From Sphingomonas sp. LY29 (lineage in GTDB: Bacteria > Pseudomonadota > Alphaproteobacteria > Sphingomonadales > Sphingomonadaceae), in NCBI RefSeq assembly GCF_035593985.1, contig NZ_CP141587.1:124001-188000 (forward strand): DNA of 64,000 bases, given 5' to 3'. The notes beneath the pieces were generated by a model. That model did not search any database. It worked only from the letters and a program-made list of their open reading frames with translations, and was not told the DNA's origin. Both the position numbers and the translations under genes were made by a program. This document shows, in pieces, positions 1,928-22,717 of the stretch; position 1 is the stretch's first letter, and each line of letters opens with the position of its first letter.

Positions 1928-3177
1928 CATGCGCGGAGTACGGGGGGCTCGATCGGTCCGAAAAAGCGTCCGCGCTCGATGATCAGGACCGCGATCAACG
2001 CGACGATCGAGCAAGCTGCCATTCCGGCTAGGAACGGGATCTGCGTTCCATCGAAGCTTTGGCCGATGACGAACCCGATTGCGGCGCCGCCGATCGTCTG
2101 GATCGTGCCCTGCACTGACGAGGCGGTGCCGGCGAACTTGGCCATGTTGGTCATCGCCAGCGTGCCGAAATTCGACGAGGTGAAGGCGAAGCTTCCCATC
2201 GCAAGCGCTTGCAGGACGACGAACATCCACAATGTCTCGCCCATCGTCACCGCAATAAGCAGATGGCCAACCGAGGCGATGACGAAGGCAATCAGCCCGG
2301 CATGCCCGACCCGGCGCAGTCCGAAGCGGCCGACCAACCGCGAGTTGAGCCAAGAGCCGAACGCCATGGGCGCCGCGACCGCGGCGAAGACGGCGCCGAT
2401 CGCTGCAGGTGCCTGGAACGTGTCGAACACGATCTGCTGGATCGAGGCGATGTAGCCCGTCAGCCCCCCGAACACTGCCGTCAGCCCGAGCGTGTAGCCC
2501 AGCGAAAGCCGCTCGCGCAGTGACGCCCCGACCGCGGTGCCGATCGTCCGCCACTCCAGCAGCCTGCGGTTGTCGGGGTGCAGCGTCTCGGACAGCCGGG
2601 CGTAGCTCCATAGCCACATGATCAGTGCGTAGACGGCGAGGACGATGAAGATCAGTCGCCAACTTCCAACCAGCAGGATCAGTTGCCCGACGCTGGGGGC
2701 CAGCATCGGGATGAGCATGAAGACCATGAAGACAAGGCTCATTACCCGCGCCATCTGCTCGCCTTCGAACAGGTCGCGGACCATCGCGGTGACAAGGACG
2801 CGGGTAACGGCGGCGGAGGCGCCCATGCCGAACCGCGCCGCGACGAGGATGGTAAAGTCGCTGGCGAAGCCGCACAGCGCCGCGAAGACGCCGTATAGGA
2901 TGACGCCCAGCGCAAGGATCGGCTTGCGCCCGAAGCGATCCGCCAACGGACCCCACAGCAATTGGGTCGAGCCGAAGCCCGCCATGTAAAGGACAACGAC
3001 AAGCTGGCGTCGGTTTTCGTCGGTGACGCCAAGCGATTCGCCGATTGCGGGCAGCGCGGGAAGCATGGCGTCGATCGCGAAAGCGTTGAGCGCCATCAAG
3101 CCGGCCAGAAGGGCGACGGTCTCCCGGGCGCCGATCCGGCGTTGGCCGGCGCGCGACTTGGGCATTTCGAAGGGCAT
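1927..3177 (-). CDS. Bcr/CflA-type MFS drug exporter
   Basis: This is a 416-residue inner-membrane transporter of the major facilitator superfamily with about twelve hydrophobic segments. After a short basic N-terminus it carries the Bcr/CflA-type start (AFAIDAMLPALPAIGESLGV) and the loop 2-3 motif GPLADRFGRKP. It also has an antiporter-type segment near PMLAPSVGQLI. The family exports drugs such as bicyclomycin and chloramphenicol by proton antiport, and the substrate here is not predictable. It converges on recA and diverges from the M24 peptidase. A second in-frame ATG at residue 5 is a possible start. Confidence 0.88.
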   Translation of the reverse strand: MPFEMPKSRAGQRRIGARETVALLAGLMALNAFAIDAMLPALPAIGESLGVTDENRRQLVVVLYMAGFGSTQLLWGPLADRFGRKPILALGVILYGVFAALCGFASDFTILVAARFGMGASAAVTRVLVTAMVRDLFEGEQMARVMSLVFMVFMLIPMLAPSVGQLILLVGSWRLIFIVLAVYALIMWLWSYARLSETLHPDNRRLLEWRTIGTAVGASLRERLSLGYTLGLTAVFGGLTGYIASIQQIVFDTFQAPAAIGAVFAAVAAPMAFGSWLNSRLVGRFGLRRVGHAGLIAFVIASVGHLLIAVTMGETLWMFVVLQALAMGSFAFTSSNFGTLAMTNMAKFAGTASSVQGTIQTIGGAAIGFVIGQSFDGTQIPFLAGMAACSIVALIAVLIIERGRFFGPIEPPVLRA

Positions 3178-3248
3178 TAGACCTCGCTGGCGAATGTTGC
3201 TCGCACGTGCAACAAGTGAAGGTGCCTTTTGTCTCCGGGAGAGTAAAA

Positions 3249-4502
3249 TTGCTGTCGATCAGTCGCCGCCGCTGGATCCAGGGCTCGATGGCACTGGCCG
3301 CTTCGGCCGCAGCACCGGCCCTGAAGGCGCAGCCGTCGACGTCGCGGGCGCTGCCTGCGCCAATCGGTAAGGCGGAGCGGATGGCGCGCCTAGCCAAGGC
3401 GCGTCGCCTCATGGAGCGAGAGGGGCTTGGCTCAATCATCATCGAGCCGGGCGCCAGCCTCGATTACTTCACGGGTGTCCGCTGGAGCCGATCCGAGCGC
3501 CTGACCGCCGCGGTGATCCCGGTATCCGGTCCCCCGCTGATCGTGACCCCTTTTTTCGAGAAGCCCTCGGTCGCTGAAAGTCTTCAGGTCGATGCGGACA
3601 TCCGCACGTGGGACGAGCATGAGGAACCGCTACGCACGGTCGCGGGCATCCTTCATGAAACGAAGGTCGCGGGCCAGCCGATCGGGATCGAGGAGACCAA
3701 TCGCTTCTTCATCGTCGACCGGCTGAAGCAGCAATATCCCAAGGCGGTCACACGCAACGCCAACGGCGTCGTTCGCGGGTGCCGGATGATCAAGTCACCG
3801 GCCGAACTCGCGTTGATGCAGGAAGCGTCCGACATCACGCTCGATGCCATTCGTGAGATGCACGGCAAGCTGAAGTCGGGGATGACTCCGGACGACATTT
3901 CCACCCTGCTCGAGCAGGCGATGGTCAGCCGCGGTGGAAGCAGCCCGTGGGCGCTGGTCTTGATCGGGGAGGCAGCGGCCTATCCGCATGGCAGCGGAAA
4001 GCCGCAGGTCTTGCGCCCGGGCGAAATTTTGCTGGTCGATACAGGCTGCGCCGTGCGCGGATATCAGGCCGACATCTCACGCACCTTCGTGTTCGGGGCG
4101 GCGCCGACTGCCGATCAGCGGCGCGTGTGGGAACAGGTCGCGCAAGGCCAGAAGATTGCGATGCAGGCCGCGCGCATCGGTGTCACCGCGGGCAGCGTCG
4201 ATGACGCTGTTCGCGCCGCTTATACGCGCTGGGGCTATGGCCCGGACTACAAGCTTCCCGGCCTGTCCCACCGCACCGGGCATGGGATCGGGATGGAGGG
4301 TCACGAACCGATCAATCTCGTCCGCGGCGAGGCGACCACGCTTGCTCCGGGCATGTGCTTTTCGAACGAGCCGGGGATCTACATTCCGGGCAAATTTGGG
4401 GTCCGGCTCGAAGACTGCTTCCACATGACGGCCGCCGGACCCAAGTGGTTCAGTGTGCCGCCTGCCTCGATCGACGACCCGTTCGGACGCTCCGGCGCTT
4501 GA
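3249..4502 (+). CDS. Tat-exported M24 family metallopeptidase (Xaa-Pro aminopeptidase type)
   Basis: This is a 417-residue pita-bread peptidase that removes an N-terminal residue next to proline. An N-terminal creatinase-like domain is followed by the catalytic domain. Candidate dinuclear metal ligands are visible: Asp in LVDTGC, Asp in YQADISRTF, His in GHGIGMEGHE, Glu in SNEPGIY and Glu in RLEDCF. Start TTG 3249 has GGAGAG five bases upstream and gives MLSISRRRWIQGSMALAA, a twin-arginine signal ending near LKAQ, so the enzyme is probably exported folded. A GTG at 3207 would give a longer N-terminus but leaves the Tat motif internal. The Tat call is inference from SRRRW-I-Q plus the hydrophobic stretch. 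Confidence 0.88.
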   Translation: MLSISRRRWIQGSMALAASAAAPALKAQPSTSRALPAPIGKAERMARLAKARRLMEREGLGSIIIEPGASLDYFTGVRWSRSERLTAAVIPVSGPPLIVTPFFEKPSVAESLQVDADIRTWDEHEEPLRTVAGILHETKVAGQPIGIEETNRFFIVDRLKQQYPKAVTRNANGVVRGCRMIKSPAELALMQEASDITLDAIREMHGKLKSGMTPDDISTLLEQAMVSRGGSSPWALVLIGEAAAYPHGSGKPQVLRPGEILLVDTGCAVRGYQADISRTFVFGAAPTADQRRVWEQVAQGQKIAMQAARIGVTAGSVDDAVRAAYTRWGYGPDYKLPGLSHRTGHGIGMEGHEPINLVRGEATTLAPGMCFSNEPGIYIPGKFGVRLEDCFHMTAAGPKWFSVPPASIDDPFGRSGA

Positions 4503-9047: not shown

Positions 9048-10001
9048 TTATACACCAAGCGCGCTGAACAGTTCCTGCATGTCCGACGGAAGGGCGCTGT
9101 CGAACGACAAACGGGCCTTTGAGACAGGATGGACGAAGCCAAGGTGGGCAGCATGCAACGCCTGCCGGTGAAATCCCAGGCTCTTCAATAACTCGCGATG
9201 GGCCTTCCGGGTCCGTCCGTAAACCGGATCGCCGACCAGCGGGTGGCCAATCGACGCCATGTGCACGCGCACCTGGTGCGTCCGCCCCGTCTCAAGCCGA
9301 CATTCGACCAGCGCCGCTTCGCGCAAGGGTTTGAGGCGCCGCCAGTGGGTGACGGCCCGCTTGCCTCGGTCCGCCGTGACGATCGCAACTTTCTTGCGAT
9401 CGTGCGGCGAGCGGGCGAGCGGTGCGTCGACCGAGCCCTCGGCAAGGCGCGGAACGTCGGAAACGATGGCCAGATAACGGCGGTCGATCGAGTGGTCGGC
9501 GAACTGGCGGGCAAGGCCCTCATGCGCCACGTCATGCTTGGCCACGACCAAGAGGCCCGACGTGTCCTTGTCGATGCGATGCACGATACCGGGGCGGGCG
9601 ACCCCGCCGATGCCGCTCAGGCTGCCGCCGCAGTGGTGCAGCAGGGCGTTGACTAAGGTGCCGTCGCGATTGCCCGCGGCGGGATGGACGACCAAGCCAG
9701 GAGGCTTGTCGACCACCAGCAGATGCTCATCCTCATAAGCGATCACCAACGCGATATCCTGCGCCTCGTTGTGCGCGGGCGCGGGATCGGGGACTGCCAG
9801 CAGATATTCTTCGTCGCCGCGCACCTTGATCGCCGGATCGCGAACCGCGGTTCCCGACCGGGTCAAGGCGCCGGATTTGGTCAGCACCTTCAACCGCTCG
9901 CGCGACATGGCTGGCAATTGCGCGGCGAGCGCCCGATCGAGGCGCCAGCCGGCGTGACTGCTGTCGAGTGCAACCTCGATGATGTGATGCCCCCCGGCCA
10001 T
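9048..10001 (-). CDS. rluD: 23S rRNA pseudouridine synthase RluD
   Basis: The enzyme converts uridines in helix 69 of 23S rRNA (1911/1915/1917 in E. coli) to pseudouridine. The 317-residue product has an N-terminal S4 RNA-binding domain (WRLDRALAAQLPAMSRERLK) followed by the RluA-type catalytic domain. Its catalytic Asp is in the signature HRIDKDTSGLLVVAK. The helper segment LETGRTHQVRVHMASIGHPLVGDPVYG is intact. ATG 10001 begins the family-typical N-terminus; no clear Shine-Dalgarno site precedes it. It is the first gene of the rluD-rpoH pair and diverges from chpT. RluC-type paralogues are similar, but the rpoH linkage favours RluD. Confidence 0.93.
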   Translation of the reverse strand: MAGGHHIIEVALDSSHAGWRLDRALAAQLPAMSRERLKVLTKSGALTRSGTAVRDPAIKVRGDEEYLLAVPDPAPAHNEAQDIALVIAYEDEHLLVVDKPPGLVVHPAAGNRDGTLVNALLHHCGGSLSGIGGVARPGIVHRIDKDTSGLLVVAKHDVAHEGLARQFADHSIDRRYLAIVSDVPRLAEGSVDAPLARSPHDRKKVAIVTADRGKRAVTHWRRLKPLREAALVECRLETGRTHQVRVHMASIGHPLVGDPVYGRTRKAHRELLKSLGFHRQALHAAHLGFVHPVSKARLSFDSALPSDMQELFSALGV

Positions 10002-17669: not shown

Positions 17670-18114
17670 GCATGAACGTGCCGGTCGCCTGCGCGATCGG
17701 CCGGCTCTCGTCGCCGCCGTGCGCCATCCCTCGGACGAAGGCGACCTGGCGCGTCAGCTTGTAGCATTCGCAGCGCGCGATCACCGTTTCGCCACGCAGA
17801 GCCGGGCGGAGATAGTCCAGCCTGAGGTCGATGGTGACGATCGGCTGAAAGCGACCGAGCGCGATCCACACCGATGCACCGCCGCAGGTGTCGAGCAAAC
17901 TGACGATGGCCCCCGACGCGAGAATGCCTTGCTCGGGAATGCCGACCAGTTCTTCGCGCCACGGCAGCGCCAATTCGATCCACTGATCCTCCGCAGCGCG
18001 GAACTCGAAGCCGACTGCGCGGCCGTGCCCAACCTCGCGAACCAGCGCGAAGAACCGCGCCGGGTCGAACCGGCCATCGACATTGGCGTGGGCGCGGTCG
18101 GGCGTCGCGGTCAC
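17659..18114 (-). CDS. Hotdog-fold thioesterase (PaaI/4HBT family)
   Basis: This 151-residue protein has the single hotdog domain pattern. The central helix is ILASGAIVSLLDTCGGASVWIAL, with an acidic residue (Asp) at the usual catalytic place, followed by strands TIDLRLDYLRPA and VIARCECYKLTRQVAFVRG. Such enzymes hydrolyse acyl-CoA thioesters, often aromatic ones; the substrate is unknown. Start GTG 18114 overlaps the stop of the upstream SufE-like gene (GTGA), so the two are co-translated. Confidence 0.82.
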   Translation of the reverse strand: MTATPDRAHANVDGRFDPARFFALVREVGHGRAVGFEFRAAEDQWIELALPWREELVGIPEQGILASGAIVSLLDTCGGASVWIALGRFQPIVTIDLRLDYLRPALRGETVIARCECYKLTRQVAFVRGMAHGGDESRPIAQATGTFMLNP

Positions 18115-18542
18115 GCGGCGAGCCGGGCGGCGGTCTCACGGACGAGCGCGATCATGTTGGGGATTCCCTGAGTCCGGTTCGACGACAGCTCGCGGCTAAG
18201 GTCGAACGGCGACAGCAGCGCGGCAATATCGGTGGTCGCCACCTCGGCGGCAGGCTTGTCCTGCACCGCCGTCAGCACAAGCGCCACGACTCCCTTGGTA
18301 ATCGCGGCGTTGCTGTCGGCAAGGAAATGAAGGCGCCCGTCCGGCGTGGTGGTCGGGTAGACCCAAACCGACGCCGAACATCCGCGAACCTTGGTCGCGT
18401 CGGTCTTCAGCGCGTCGGGCATGGGTTCGAGCTTGCGACCCAGATCGATCAGCAGTCGATAGCGGTCGTCGCCGTCGAGAAATTCATACTCGTCGGCAAG
18501 GTCGGCGAGCGAGGGAAGGGAAGGAGCGGGTGCATCGGTCAT
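18111..18542 (-). CDS. sufE: SufE family sulfur-acceptor protein
   Basis: SufE takes persulfide sulfur from the cysteine desulfurase SufS for Fe-S cluster assembly. The 143-residue product keeps the family core: LADEYEFLDGDDRYRLLIDLG near the N-terminus, then the active-site Cys in KVRGCSASVWVYP, and LSPFDLSRELSSNRTQGIPNM towards the end. It lies away from any suf operon, next to the thioesterase gene with a four-base overlap. A housekeeping SufE and a CsdE-like paralogue cannot be separated on sequence alone. Confidence 0.9.
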   Translation of the reverse strand: MTDAPAPSLPSLADLADEYEFLDGDDRYRLLIDLGRKLEPMPDALKTDATKVRGCSASVWVYPTTTPDGRLHFLADSNAAITKGVVALVLTAVQDKPAAEVATTDIAALLSPFDLSRELSSNRTQGIPNMIALVRETAARLAA

Positions 18543-18579: not shown

Positions 18580-18825
18580 CTAGCGGTCGCGAAGCTGCTC
18601 GATCTGGCGCGACAGCGTGTCTTCCTTTTCGACCGCGATACGCTCGAGAACGTGGATGCGCTCCTTCAACTGGCGGACCTCGTCCTTGAGCCGAGCGCTC
18701 TCGGCGCTATCCTCCCGTTGGACGGGCGCGGACGATTGGTTCTGAAGATATTTGTAGCGGCTCTTCATCACCATCGCGAACATGACGATCGCGACGATCG
18801 CAACCGGGATCCATCCACCATTCAC
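18580..18825 (-). CDS. Small PspB-like membrane protein, last gene of psp operon
   Basis: This is an 81-residue protein with one N-terminal membrane helix (GWIPVAIVAIVMFAMVMKSRYKY), then a polar linker and a coiled coil. The coiled coil ends in LKERIHVLERIAVEKEDTL and QIEQLRDR. This tail matches the PspB signature (MRERIQALESILDAE in E. coli PspB). The start overlaps the previous gene by four bases. It probably sits in the inner membrane with the coiled coil in the cytoplasm and takes part in the phage-shock response. It is not canonical PspB because that gene lies at 19861, so the exact role is unknown. Confidence 0.75.
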   Translation of the reverse strand: MNGGWIPVAIVAIVMFAMVMKSRYKYLQNQSSAPVQREDSAESARLKDEVRQLKERIHVLERIAVEKEDTLSRQIEQLRDR

Positions 18826-19121
18826 TGGACCTTGTCTCCTTGCGTCACTCGGGGCGTGCGAAGCGCTTCGATCTGTGCCGCGGTCTCCATACCCTTGTCG
18901 GTGACGATTTGCTCCAGGATTCGTACGCGCTGCTCAAGCCGCTCGGTGTGCGCTGCGTATTGAGCGGCCTTTTCGGCGGTCTGGTTGCCCAGCAACTCGA
19001 GTTCGCGCTCGCGAAATTTGAGGCGGCGTTTGTACATGTCACCGATGATCCCGAAGATGACGGGGATTCCGACGACAATCATGAAGAAGCCCAGGACGAA
19101 GAAGCCGGTGCTGCCGTCCAT
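18822..19121 (-). CDS. Small PspB-like membrane protein, psp operon
   Basis: This is a 99-residue protein with an N-terminal membrane segment (FFVLGFFMIVVGIPVIFGIIGDM). A charged coiled coil follows (YKRRLKFRERELELL, then AQYAAHTERLEQRVRIL). The signature block EQIVTDKGMETAAQIEALR parallels those in its neighbours and in PspC's tail. It starts one base inside the end of the gene at 19121 and overlaps the next gene by four bases, so the set is co-translated. By position and pattern it is a PspB paralogue or a partner in the membrane Psp complex. No enzymatic motif is seen. Confidence 0.75.
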   Translation of the reverse strand: MDGSTGFFVLGFFMIVVGIPVIFGIIGDMYKRRLKFRERELELLGNQTAEKAAQYAAHTERLEQRVRILEQIVTDKGMETAAQIEALRTPRVTQGDKVQ

Positions 19122-19456
19122 CAGGCGTTCCCTTCCTTGTCGAACGCCAGGCGGTCGATTTCCTGCGCCAATAGCGACGGGCGATCCGTGACGATCCGCT
19201 CGATCGTCTCCATGCGGTCCTTGATCGATCCAATCTCGGCGCGAAGCTGCGCATTCTCGCTCGTCAGCAATTTAATCCGCTCGGCCGCTTCCTGGTCGGT
19301 CTTGGGGTGAAGTGCCTGCCCCCAGGCCCCGTCGAGCGGATAACCGTTCTTGATGCGAAGCCAGGTGGTGATCACCCAGCCGAAGACGCCGGCAACGACG
19401 ATGACGGAGATCATCGGGAAAGATTCGGTAGGGAAGGTGAACTTGTCGGGTTCCAT
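19121..19456 (-). CDS. Small PspB-like membrane protein, psp operon
   Basis: This is a 111-residue protein. After about 13 polar residues comes one membrane helix (MISVIVVAGVFGWVITTWL). A linker (NGYPLDGAWGQALHPKTDQE) follows, then a coiled coil with IKDRMETIERIVTDRPSLL and AQEIDRLAFD. The ERIVTD core and the Q/E-I-x-x-L ending repeat in its neighbours. It lies 15 bases after pspC. It is likely an additional inner-membrane sensor or adaptor of the Psp response; I know no experimental name for it. Confidence 0.75.
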   Translation of the reverse strand: MEPDKFTFPTESFPMISVIVVAGVFGWVITTWLRIKNGYPLDGAWGQALHPKTDQEAAERIKLLTSENAQLRAEIGSIKDRMETIERIVTDRPSLLAQEIDRLAFDKEGNA

Positions 19457-19471
19457 CGCTCGACCCCTCGT

Positions 19472-19861
19472 TTAGCGAAGTTGCTCGATCTCGCGCGCGA
19501 GACTGCGGTTCTCGGTGGTGACGAAATATTCGACGTCCGCGAGGCGGCGATCGATCTCGCGCATCCGGCTGCGGATCTCCGCGGCCGAGCGCGAAGGGGA
19601 GGCGCGAACGCCCTGCCAGAATTTCTGCTGGTCGCGGTCGCCCTCGGCCAGTTCGAGCGGCTTGTTCGGCGCCACCACCGCAGTGATAAAGTAGAGCGGC
19701 AGCGTCATGCCGCCCGACAGCAGGACCGATGCGAAGAACATGATGCGCGTCAGCGTCACGTCCATGCCGGCATAGTCGGCGATGCCCGCGCAGACCCCGA
19801 ACAACTTGCCGTTGCGGCGGTCTTTGTAAAAGCGGGTGCGGAACGGAGGCTGGGTGGACAT
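19472..19861 (-). CDS. pspC: Phage shock protein C with added C-terminal coiled coil
   Basis: PspC is an inner-membrane stress sensor that works with PspB to relieve PspA inhibition of PspF. The 129-residue product starts with the PspC domain (FYKDRRNGKLFGVCAGIADY, then MDVTLTRIMFFAS and a second hydrophobic segment). After about residue 75 a coiled-coil tail follows with MREIDRRLADVEYFVTT and SLAREIEQLR, echoing the PspB-like signature of the neighbours. Its start shares one base with the pspB stop (TAATG). The fold call is firm; the tail's function is inference. Confidence 0.93.
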   Translation of the reverse strand: MSTQPPFRTRFYKDRRNGKLFGVCAGIADYAGMDVTLTRIMFFASVLLSGGMTLPLYFITAVVAPNKPLELAEGDRDQQKFWQGVRASPSRSAAEIRSRMREIDRRLADVEYFVTTENRSLAREIEQLR

Positions 19862-20139
19862 TAGCGGTCACTCCCCGAGAGCATGCGGCTGCGAAGCGCG
19901 TTGAGTTCGTCGTCCGCGCCTGGAAGGCAGGACTGACGCCAGTTGGGGTTTTCGGCGCTCATGATGCGCTCGATCGTGCACATCCGGTCGTCGAGGCGCC
20001 GCGAAAGCTCGTAAAGGTCATCGAGCAGTTTCTCGTCGGACCCGGTCAGCGTTTTCGCCGTCTTCCACTTGGTGATGTAGTGAAACAGGATGATCGGGAA
20101 GGCGATGAAAATGCCTACGATCGCAACAACGTCTTCCAT
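19861..20139 (-). CDS. pspB: Phage shock protein B
   Basis: This 92-residue protein has an N-terminal membrane helix (VVAIVGIFIAFPIILFHYI) and a cytoplasmic coiled coil. Its diagnostic segment RMCTIERIMSAENPNWRQ is close to E. coli PspB (DAEHPNWRDR). An extension of about 22 residues follows (LPGADDELNALRSRM). PspB and PspC form the membrane receptor of the phage-shock response. The gene abuts pspA with no gap and overlaps pspC by one base. Confidence 0.9.
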   Translation of the reverse strand: MEDVVAIVGIFIAFPIILFHYITKWKTAKTLTGSDEKLLDDLYELSRRLDDRMCTIERIMSAENPNWRQSCLPGADDELNALRSRMLSGSDR

Positions 20140-20808
20140 TTACGCCCCCTTAGATTTCATTGCGGCCTTCATGGCCTCCAGTTCGGCATCGACCTTCTCA
20201 TTGGCGCGAAGGTCGGAGATTTCTTCCTCGAGGCTGCGCGGCCCGGTCATGCCGAGCGCATCCGCACGGCCCTCGGCAAAGTCGGCGCGCCGTTCAAGCA
20301 GTTCGAACTTTGAAAAGGCATCGTCGGTCCGCCCGCCGTGCAGCAATTCGCTGGTGCGGGCGCGCGTGACGGCGCTTTCGATCCGCGACGCGATCTGGTT
20401 CTGTCGCGACCGCGCTTCACGAAGCTTCCCCTGCAGCTTGGCGATGTCGATCTCGTAGGTCTTGAGCGTTTCCTCGATCGTGCCGAGTTCGGCGCGAAGG
20501 CCTTCGGCCATGTCGGCCGCCTTCTGCCGTTCGATCAGCGCCGCCTTGGCGAGATCCTCGCGGTCTTTCGACAGCGCGAGTTCGGCCTTTTCGGTCCAGC
20601 TTTCCTGCAGCTGATCGAGCCGACCCAGCGCGCGACGCATTTCCTTGCCGTCGGCGATCGAGCGCGCGGCGGAGGCGCGAACCTCGACCAGCGTTTCTTC
20701 CATTTCGAGAATGATCATGCGGATCATCCGCGCCGGATCTTCGGCACGGTCGAGCAGCTCGGTCATGTTGGCTGCGAAAATGTCCCGAGTTCGGGAAAAG
20801 ATACCCAT
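20140..20808 (-). CDS. pspA: Phage shock protein A
   Basis: PspA is an ESCRT-III-like peripheral membrane protein that protects membranes under stress and holds PspF inactive in resting cells. The 222-residue product is almost entirely helical coiled coil. It starts with GIFSRTRDIFAANMTELLDRAEDPARMIRMII, a PspA hallmark, and contains the family motif in ALIERQKAADMAEGLRAEL. The end, GPRSLEEEISDLRANEKVDAELEAMKAAM, is also typical. ATG 20808 has GGAG eight bases upstream and follows a sigma-54 promoter. It is the first gene of a six-gene unit. Confidence 0.96.
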   Translation of the reverse strand: MGIFSRTRDIFAANMTELLDRAEDPARMIRMIILEMEETLVEVRASAARSIADGKEMRRALGRLDQLQESWTEKAELALSKDREDLAKAALIERQKAADMAEGLRAELGTIEETLKTYEIDIAKLQGKLREARSRQNQIASRIESAVTRARTSELLHGGRTDDAFSKFELLERRADFAEGRADALGMTGPRSLEEEISDLRANEKVDAELEAMKAAMKSKGA

Positions 20809-20847: not shown

Positions 20848-20864
20848 AGCAGGGATCGTGCCAA
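20848..20864 (-). promoter_or_regulatory. Sigma-54 promoter of the psp operon
   Basis: Read on the minus strand, TTGGCACGATCCCTGCT matches the -24/-12 consensus YTGGCACGrNNNTTGCW at all informative positions but one. GG and GC have correct spacing. It lies about 40 bases before the pspA start, and the divergent gene encodes the sigma-54 activator PspF. Confidence 0.85.
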
Positions 20865-20965
20865 AAATTCGATAGCGTCAGATATCCCGCATTTCCCGCC
20901 ATTTTCGACGAACGGCGGAGCGATAATAGTTGCCAGATGGTGGGATTTGCCACCACATGTTGGGC

Positions 20966-22027
20966 ATGGAGCGCACCACTCAATTCGTCGGCCAAAGCCT
21001 TGCCTTTCTCGACGCCGTCGAGCGGGCGAGCAGGGCCGCTCCGCTCAATCGCCCGGTGCTGGTGATTGGCGAGCGTGGCACCGGCAAGGAACTGATCGCG
21101 GAGCGCCTTCATCACCTGTCGCAGCGCTGGGCGGGGCCGCTGGTGACGATGAACTGCGCCGCCTTGCCCGAGAATCTGATCGAAGCCGAATTGTTCGGGC
21201 ATGAGGCGGGCAGCTTCACCGGCGCCGCGAAAACCCGACACGGCCGGTTCGAGGAGGCCGACGGCGGCACCCTCTTCCTCGACGAACTCGCGACCCTTTC
21301 GTCACCGGCACAGGACCGCCTGCTTCGCGCGGTCGAATATGGCGAAGTCACCCGCATCGGCGCGTCGAAGCCGATCCAGGTCGACGTTCGCATCGTCGCT
21401 GCGACGAATGAGCACCTTCCGCGGCTCGTCGAAGAGGGCCGCTTCCGCGCCGATCTTTTGGATCGATTGTCGTTCGAAGTCGTCACTCTTCCCCCGCTCA
21501 GGGTGCGAAAGGGGGACATTGTCCTTCTTGCCGAGCATTTCGGTAGGCGCATGGCGGTCGAGCTCGAATGGTCCAACTGGCCCGGCTTCTCTGCCCAGGC
21601 ACAGGACGCGATGGAGAATTATCGCTGGCCGGGGAATGTCCGCGAGCTTCGCAACGCGGTCGAACGCGCCGTCTATCGGCACGAGAATCCCGAGCGCGAG
21701 ATCGAGCAGCTTCAGTTTGATCCATTCAGTTCGCCATGGGCGCTGACCGAAGCGCCGGAAGCTGGCGGTTCGCAAGCGCCGGTATCGACGCCGTCACCGT
21801 CAGCTGCCGCAGTTTCAGAGGAAGGGCCTCCGGTCCCCGCCTCGGGCACGACAACTACCGACGACTTCCGGGCCGCTGTCTCGAATTATGAGAAGGCGCT
21901 GCTGGAGGACGCGTTGTCGCGCAATCGCTTCAACCAGCGCGCGACCGCCGCTGCGCTCGGACTGAGTTACGACCAGCTTCGCCACGCCCTGAAGCGGCAC
22001 AAGTTGCTCGATGCAGGCGGTGCGTGA
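20966..22027 (+). CDS. pspF: Sigma-54-dependent activator PspF
   Basis: PspF is the AAA+ enhancer-binding protein that switches on the psp operon. The 353-residue product lacks an N-terminal sensor domain, as E. coli PspF does. It has Walker A GERGTGKEL, the sigma-54 contact loop as GSFTGA (GAFTGA in most), Walker B GGTLFLDELATL, the arginine segment RFRADLLDRL and WPGNVRELRN. A Pro/Ser/Thr-rich linker of about 35 residues leads to the DNA-binding helix-turn-helix (NQRATAAALGLSYDQLRHALKRH). It diverges from pspA. ATG 20966 gives the family start; 20957 is an alternative and neither has a clear ribosome site. Confidence 0.94.
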   Translation: MERTTQFVGQSLAFLDAVERASRAAPLNRPVLVIGERGTGKELIAERLHHLSQRWAGPLVTMNCAALPENLIEAELFGHEAGSFTGAAKTRHGRFEEADGGTLFLDELATLSSPAQDRLLRAVEYGEVTRIGASKPIQVDVRIVAATNEHLPRLVEEGRFRADLLDRLSFEVVTLPPLRVRKGDIVLLAEHFGRRMAVELEWSNWPGFSAQAQDAMENYRWPGNVRELRNAVERAVYRHENPEREIEQLQFDPFSSPWALTEAPEAGGSQAPVSTPSPSAAAVSEEGPPVPASGTTTTDDFRAAVSNYEKALLEDALSRNRFNQRATAAALGLSYDQLRHALKRHKLLDAGGA

Positions 22028-22108
22028 GCGCCGCCTTCGTTGACTTGCAACAGGCGACGCCTAGGGGCGTTAAATCAACGAACATCCACGCCATCAAGGA
22101 GCGACGCC

Positions 22109-22717
22109 ATGGCCTTTTCCGTCCCCGACCTACCTTATGATTATGGTGCGCTTGCCCCGACGATCGATGAAGCGACGATGAAGCTGCATCATGACAAGCA
22201 CCACCAGGCTTATGTCGACAAGCTCAACGACGCGGTGAAGGCCGATTCCTCGCTCGAGGGGAAGGACCTGGAAGATATTCTCGCGTCGATTTCGTCGCAG
22301 CCGGCCGCGGTCCGCAACAACGGTGGTGGTCACTGGAACCACAGCTTTTTCTGGGAAACGATGAAGCCGGGCGGCGGACAGCCATCGGGCGCACTTGCGG
22401 AAGCGATCGACAAGACCTTTGGCTCGCTCGACGCGATGAAGGAAAAGTTCAACGCTGCGGGCGTCGGCCAGTTCGGTTCGGGGTGGGTCTGGCTCGTCGC
22501 GGGCGAGGGCGGTGCCCTGGAAATCGTCGCGACGCCGAACCAGGACAATCCGCTAATGGATGTCGTTTCCTCGAACGGTACGCCGATCTTGGGCAACGAC
22601 GTGTGGGAACACGCCTACTACCTCACCTACAACAATCGCCGTCCCGACTATCTCAAGGCGTGGTGGGACGTGGTGAATTGGGACAAGGCCAGCGAGCGGT
22701 ACGACGCCGCCAAGTAA
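22109..22717 (+). CDS. Superoxide dismutase, Fe/Mn family (Mn-type metal signature)
   Basis: It converts superoxide to oxygen and hydrogen peroxide. The 202-residue product has the four metal ligands His27 ([11 protein letters not shown]), His78 (HWNHSFFW), Asp164 and His168 (DVWEHAY). Residue 74 is Gly and residue 145 is Gln in PNQDNPLM. That is the arrangement of Mn-type enzymes, while Fe-type enzymes carry Gln at the first site. Many sphingomonad proteins of this kind are nevertheless labelled sodB, and cambialistic use is possible. AAGGAG seven bases before ATG 22109 fixes the start. It converges on the ABC permease gene with three bases between. Confidence 0.94.

Follow-up and report, generated by a model that had tools for sequence, protein, structure and literature searches.

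A PspC-like tail helix recurs on small membrane proteins encoded behind pspC in psp operons of Sphingomonadaceae

Three small genes follow pspC in the psp operon of Sphingomonas sp. LY29, and their products, X, Y and Z (the extras), end in a helical block that recurs at the C-terminus of PspC. Judged by its sequence, the end of this block is PspC-type and is joined to a PspB-like part consisting of membrane helix and helix. We propose, with a probability of roughly 0.58, that X, Y and Z work together with PspB and PspC, serving PspA as docks anchored in the membrane and/or pairing with the PspC tail as coiled-coil partners. The genes and sites lie as follows in the window, i.e. the whole stretch of 64,000 nucleotides that was analysed.

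18111..18542, minus strand: sufE-like gene, after the cassette and outside it (PF02657, E 9e-34)
18580..18825, minus strand: extra gene Z of class c, which starts with GTG and codes for 81 aa; its tail block spans 18592-18660 (extras' profile E 3.7e-20, Z being a row of that profile)
18822..19121, minus strand: extra gene Y of class b, which codes for 99 aa; its tail block spans 18861-18929 (extras' profile E 5.0e-23, Y being a row)
19121..19456, minus strand: extra gene X, class a, 111 aa, with membrane helix, GYPL linker motif and tail block at 19148-19216 (extras' profile E 4.4e-29, X being a row)
19472..19861, minus strand: pspC, 129 aa, with C-terminal tail block (PF04024, E 4e-18; TIGR02978, E 2.1e-33)
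19478..19546, minus strand: tail block of PspC, R106-L128, RLADVEYFVTTENRSLAREIEQL (extras' profile over the whole genome, E 1.8e-6; alignment with E. coli PspC)
19861..20139, minus strand: pspB, 92 aa (PF06667, E 2.8e-20)
19939-19986, minus strand: first half of the block in PspB, RMCTIERIMSAENPNW, within pspB
20140..20808, minus strand: pspA (PF04012, E 4e-36; TIGR02977, E 2.8e-76)
20848..20863, minus strand: sigma-54-type promoter TGGCACGATCCCTGCT, 55 bases upstream of the pspA start
20930..22027, plus strand: pspF, sigma-54 enhancer-binding activator, divergent ORF

The locus displays the features of a sigma-54/PspF-type Psp operon, namely, a divergent pspF, a GG-N10-GC promoter and pspA as the first gene, and rpoN is present in the window genome. 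It resembles the classical pspF-pspABC operon of E. coli, where PspF is a sigma-54 enhancer-binding protein (PMC6003685), in the divergent pspF, the pspA-pspB-pspC order and the sigma-54-type promoter, whereas pspC is followed here by one-helix extras and in E. coli by pspD. A relation of the extras to PspD was rejected, PspD giving no match to their profile. X, Y and Z share one gene run behind the PspF/sigma-54-type promoter and are probably co-transcribed in the cell, in agreement with the first-pass annotation, which had placed these genes in a single operon under a sigma-54 promoter. Of 196 genomes of the order searched with PF06667, 182 have a match, and 100 pspB loci were taken from these, 68 of them in the family; the choice was not random and comprised all 15 of the genus, then picks per genus and family. 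In 98 of these 100 loci a pspF homologue is encoded on the other strand from pspA, and a sufE-like gene was detected in 79. When the whole pspF-pspA gap was scanned in the 98 loci with pspF, a sigma-54-type site with at least 9 of 11 letters was found in 15/15 loci of the genus, 64/67 of the family and 31/31 of the others, against 61 of 1960 shuffled gaps. Downstream of pspF in the window, an iron/manganese superoxide dismutase-like ORF (22040-22717, plus strand) was recognised by eye.

A profile of 87 extras, with X, Y and Z among its rows and PspC excluded, was searched against the whole genome and retrieved X, Y, Z, two zinc-ribbon-like proteins and the PspC tail (E 1.8e-6), the next match standing at E 0.18. 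The earlier observation that one helical block had been duplicated and spread is borne out. Similarity arising by chance among membrane-plus-coiled-coil proteins that have no common origin is a highly improbable explanation. Heptad-rich helices do weakly match unrelated coiled coils, and some comparisons with PspC tails are no better than reversed decoys: hhalign of classes a, b and c (those of X, Y and Z) against the PspC tails of other families gave 79.0, 11.3 and 14.9%, and for class c the reversed decoy, at 30.7%, exceeded the true alignment. However, reversed decoys are far lower where the extras are compared with one another or with PspB of other families; positions R, E, R, I, T, D, I, L and R are near-invariant over the 87 proteins; and, bar the two zinc-ribbon-like proteins, nothing outside the operon does better with the profile than E 0.18. 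For the extras among themselves, a chance origin is practically refuted. The best Pfam matches of X are generic coiled coils (E 0.006), and weak coiled-coil matches among the 87 extras include ZapB (2/87) and bZIP (1/87). Solved structures were rejected as relatives: the best PDB match of the extras' profile (E 0.03) was judged to represent generic coiled coils and that of the PspB profile, an opsin/cytochrome fusion (E 0.0048), chance, while neither the PspC profile nor, with Foldseek, the X model matched anything in the PDB.

The first-pass annotation had described four PspB-type proteins sharing the PspB helix. The extras and PspB do share the block's first half and the membrane-helix build, but not the end of the block: classes a, b and c carry a PspC-type end, TD....L..EI..L, which PspB does not have. 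X, Y and Z are therefore not plain PspB copies, and a description of them as PspB paralogues and nothing else was rejected because of this end and because they miss the curated PspB cut-offs (PF06667 and TIGR02976), Z matching TIGR02976 at E 4.5e-5, under the cut-off. The PspB consensus motifs, HYxTxWK following the membrane helix and a terminal LDxExPxWR, are absent from X, Y and Z, in which PF04024, the PspC domain, also found no match at E up to 1. The extras do display the PspB-like build of one N-terminal membrane helix, an inside C-terminus and a following cytoplasmic helix, and those of classes a, b and c align to PspB by hhalign over 58-77 columns that cover membrane helix and helix. 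Against PspB of other families, hhalign gave 90.5, 95.7 and 92.8% for classes a, b and c, and against PspC tails of their own family 95.0, 73.1 and 86.1%, with reversed decoys at or below 14.3% in both comparisons; class c against PspB of its own family reached 19.8%. PspA gave no hhalign signal as an origin of the block. A profile of other families' PspC tails found PspC and one unrelated place (E 0.197) in the window genome and no extras, and the PspB profile of other families found Z at E 0.056 and Y at E 0.29, alongside an unrelated match at 0.33. Furthermore, the extras' profile scores E. coli PspB at E 2.4e-4 and E. coli PspC at E 2.6. Identity between classes a, b, c and e is 48-64% in a 17-residue core, which was chosen by a motif pattern that favours high identity (matched by 71/73 members of class b and all of a, c and e), versus 8-20% in the N-terminal 25-residue stretch, compared by position and unaligned; the core identity of the extras to the PspC of their own family is only 19-26%.

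All 68 family pspB loci have one to six extras downstream of pspC, in changing order (one in 3 loci, two in 2, three in 18, four in 27, five in 15 and six in 3), counted only at 35 bits or more. The link to pspA and pspF, which the annotation had proposed to check with a profile, and the presence in close relatives, on which it had made its reading depend, both hold in this survey. Another family of the order (f8) has a single extra in 3 of 9 loci, each time beside a second, short, tailless PspC, and no extras were found in 23 loci from five further families. Such a second PspC was seen in L075, L082, L106 and L074 of family f8 and also in L063 and L090; in L075, L082 and L106 the very next gene encodes a one-helix tail protein, as if the parts had been split over two genes. 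In L077 (family f5), one of the 23 loci with no extras, the gene after pspC is a true PspB duplicate outside the family, ending in LDAEVPGWRE and scoring 48 bits with the PspB profile.

Clustering sorted 290 extras into class a with 100 members (that of X), class b with 73 (that of Y), class c with 66 (that of Z), class d with 25, class e with 7 and some rarer classes. These are the classes used here; the profile-based X, Y and Z labels absorb neighbouring paralogues. Class order and copy number vary among loci. Class d, a 75-90-aa one-helix protein at the cassette end in L043 (2204-2446, minus strand), L044 (6705-6977, plus strand) and 23 other loci, ends in RIEIADLKERIRKLEAIASGVDL or a similar sequence, lacks the block's second half and is absent from the window; its counts are low estimates, as unlabelled ORFs at 16-21 bits are of about class d size. 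The single N-terminal membrane helix earlier assigned to each small protein agrees with the topology predicted for classes a-e, in which the C-terminus is inside for 268 of 271 extras (99 of 100 for PspB). The helices that structure prediction was to show appear in the model of X (87-row alignment, pLDDT 87), at residues 10-37, 55-90 and 93-109 with a break at TD, whereas the PspC tail forms an unbroken part of one long C-terminal helix, 89-128, in the PspC model (61 rows, pLDDT 85). The extras are under purifying selection: dN/dS is 0-0.36 in the two closest pairs, one X pair being without differences, and 0.19-0.61 in the more distant pair L035/L119, a statement that leaves out L036/L115 (not colinear; 0.22-0.60, one undefined) and L046/L064 (unequal gene numbers).

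Fourteen genomes of the order have no PF06667 match. Three of them belong to the family and have two, three and four matches to the extras' profile (E 1e-4), one of the four, in G186, being that genome's own PspC tail (E 8.7e-7); the other 11, five of which are at least 90% complete, have none at this threshold. In G146 and G186 the operon consists of a divergent pspF followed on the other side by pspA, pspC and three extras, and in G053, which has no pspF in 15 kb, of pspA, a tailless 88-aa PspC and two extras. Since extras are kept next to pspA and pspC in these three genomes, pspB can be absent where extras remain and, as the tailless PspC of G053 indicates, the PspC tail is also absent in one case. 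That it is pspB that is missing where extras are kept agrees with an alternative which we regard as unlikely but serious, namely, that the extras are PspB-like assembly or stability partners whose helices pair with the PspC tail or with each other, so that PspC is stable and, at rest, shielded, while PspA is not contacted. The alignment of their membrane-helix-plus-helix build to PspB, the preference of their profile for E. coli PspB over E. coli PspC and the known interaction of PspB and PspC in the membrane (PMC6003685) point the same way. Against it speaks the PspC-type end of classes a, b and c, which PspB lacks, and the extras of G053 persist though PspC there has no tail to pair with.

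Docking of PspA is suggested by the alignment of the block with the PspA-binding end of PspC. In E. coli and Yersinia, the C-terminal domain of PspC binds PspA under stress. According to Heidrich and Bruser (2018, PMC6003685), PspA binding requires the Yersinia counterpart of V105 of E. coli PspC, and PspC-dependent signalling requires V105 itself, the latter by their own unpublished confirmation. Aligned with the tails of the window PspC, X, Y and Z, the end of E. coli PspC (NC_000913) needs no gaps of its own, and the V105 position falls inside the block, in its (V/A)T(S/D) part. The tail R (98-100%) and E (97-100%) are common to family PspC, other-family PspC and classes a, b and c, and the T occurs in 98% of classes a and b, 100% of other-family PspC, 67% of family PspC and 68% of class c. 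At the V105 position, PspC has Y (69%) or V (26%) in the family and M (43%) or V (34%) elsewhere, and Z has A; because the residue varies in PspC, it is the place and not the valine that is common. The extras share with the PspA-binding domain of E. coli and Yersinia PspC (PMC6003685) the arrangement R...(M/L)E..(V)T(S/D)....L...(F/I)..L, but carry it on one variable membrane helix and without the PspC domain. On the docking reading, X, Y and Z would extend the Psp membrane module, each combining one N-terminal membrane helix with an inside C-terminus, a variable membrane helix and linker, and the common PspC-tail-type C-terminal helix. Alongside PspB and PspC they would form a mixed set of PspA docks, and their differing membrane parts would feed differing membrane disturbances into one output, in which PspA is pulled off PspF and held at the damaged membrane. 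PspA binding, hetero-oligomers and the sensing of different cues by the extras would all be expected, and the hetero-oligomeric PspA-docking sensor envisaged in the annotation gains from the E. coli PspC alignment and from the three pspB-less genomes with extras. Counting against the docking reading are the blank result for the extras with PspC tails of other families, the better score of E. coli PspB than of E. coli PspC with the extras' profile, the low core identity to family PspC, the variable V105 position and the break at TD in the X model.

The block is also found away from psp genes. In the window genome, two further proteins of 128 aa, encoded off the operon (L139, 1291-1677, and L140, 1297-1683, both on the plus strand; G000:C1 near 567429 and 828959), have a CxxC zinc-ribbon-like start and the block at the end, with no membrane helix evident by eye. 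One matches DUF6487 below the cut-off (E 0.013), the other has lost the second Cys pair, and relatives occur in 5 of 99 family genomes including the window genome (E 1e-10). By eye, PilZ-like ORFs seem to lie nearby. In locus L145, one zinc-ribbon-like gene is flanked by two copies, near-identical by eye and about 6 kb apart, of a gene for a 138-177-aa protein (2821-3354 and 9379-9795, both on the plus strand). Beyond the family, a class-wide search of 115 genomes gave matches at 1e-5 only in two of the family, and a phylum-wide search of 299 genomes gave 27, of which 13 belong to the family, 2 to one alphaproteobacterial family and 12 lie outside the class; in each genome these searches scored only some of the candidates (at most 46 and 17, respectively), so that misses are possible. 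The 19 loci examined, from 13 of the 14 non-family genomes, encode lone or paired one-helix block proteins (L180-L186 and L188-L199) with no psp gene within ~7 kb, and in the six loci scanned the neighbours differ (deaminase, dUTPase, helicase and others). L189 and L192 adjoin a MafB19-like/cytidine deaminase gene.

Proteins of the same build away from psp genes in other families imply that the block may have partners other than PspA. Taken further, the block could be a dimerising helix in general use among small membrane proteins with non-Psp roles, and in sphingomonads such genes would merely have moved in behind pspC. The 14 of 299 phylum genomes with such proteins outside the family, their distance from psp genes and the two zinc-ribbon-like proteins all speak for this improbable view; against it, the PspC tail itself resembles the block, the genes stand behind pspC in 68/68 loci and in the three without pspB, and, of the genomes sampled over the class, only those of the family and of one other family match at 1e-5. 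We entertain more tentatively than the docking reading, with the odds against it, a broader idea in which the PspC tail would be a mobile PspA-docking module that sphingomonads have mounted on many membrane helices, and also on one soluble zinc-ribbon-like protein, giving a mixed, multi-input dock array, and in which pspB and even the tail of PspC could be replaced by extras.

The set is a variant of the known Psp system; operons with duplicated PspB, and PspC whose C-terminus has a PspB-like part, have been reported, with AOL22920.1 and ANW39986.1 as examples (Ravi et al. 2024, PMC11237479), so that the earlier statement that no description was known is not quite accurate. Each of the two features receives one sentence there, and these passages mention no classes, family-wide count, PspC-type end on the duplicates, pspB loss or link to the PspA-binding site. 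A limited literature search on PspB and PspC in sphingomonads found no paper. As far as is known from this search and from those passages, the PspC-type end, the classes, the variable family-wide array, the operons that keep extras but have no pspB, and the occurrence of the block in zinc-ribbon-like and orphan proteins are new. A family that repeats a PspC-tail-like helix on varied membrane parts, and in which pspB or the PspC tail is missing in places, supplies natural variants for asking which part senses and which docks. It would also give a place to several thousand database proteins: there were 498 matches for Z, 5392 for Y and 7797 for X, sets that may overlap, and the 360 matches listed are mostly unnamed or called hypothetical. 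Among the best 80 of 316 class a relatives are records named Sphingomonas, Novosphingobium, Sphingobium, Sphingopyxis and Sphingorhabdus, and also Hephaestia, Stakelama, Tsuneonella and Pelagerythrobacter. The PspA ORF is ~280-430 aa long in further genera of the family (L042, L047, L054, L301 and others), which suggests an N-terminal extension or a mis-called start.
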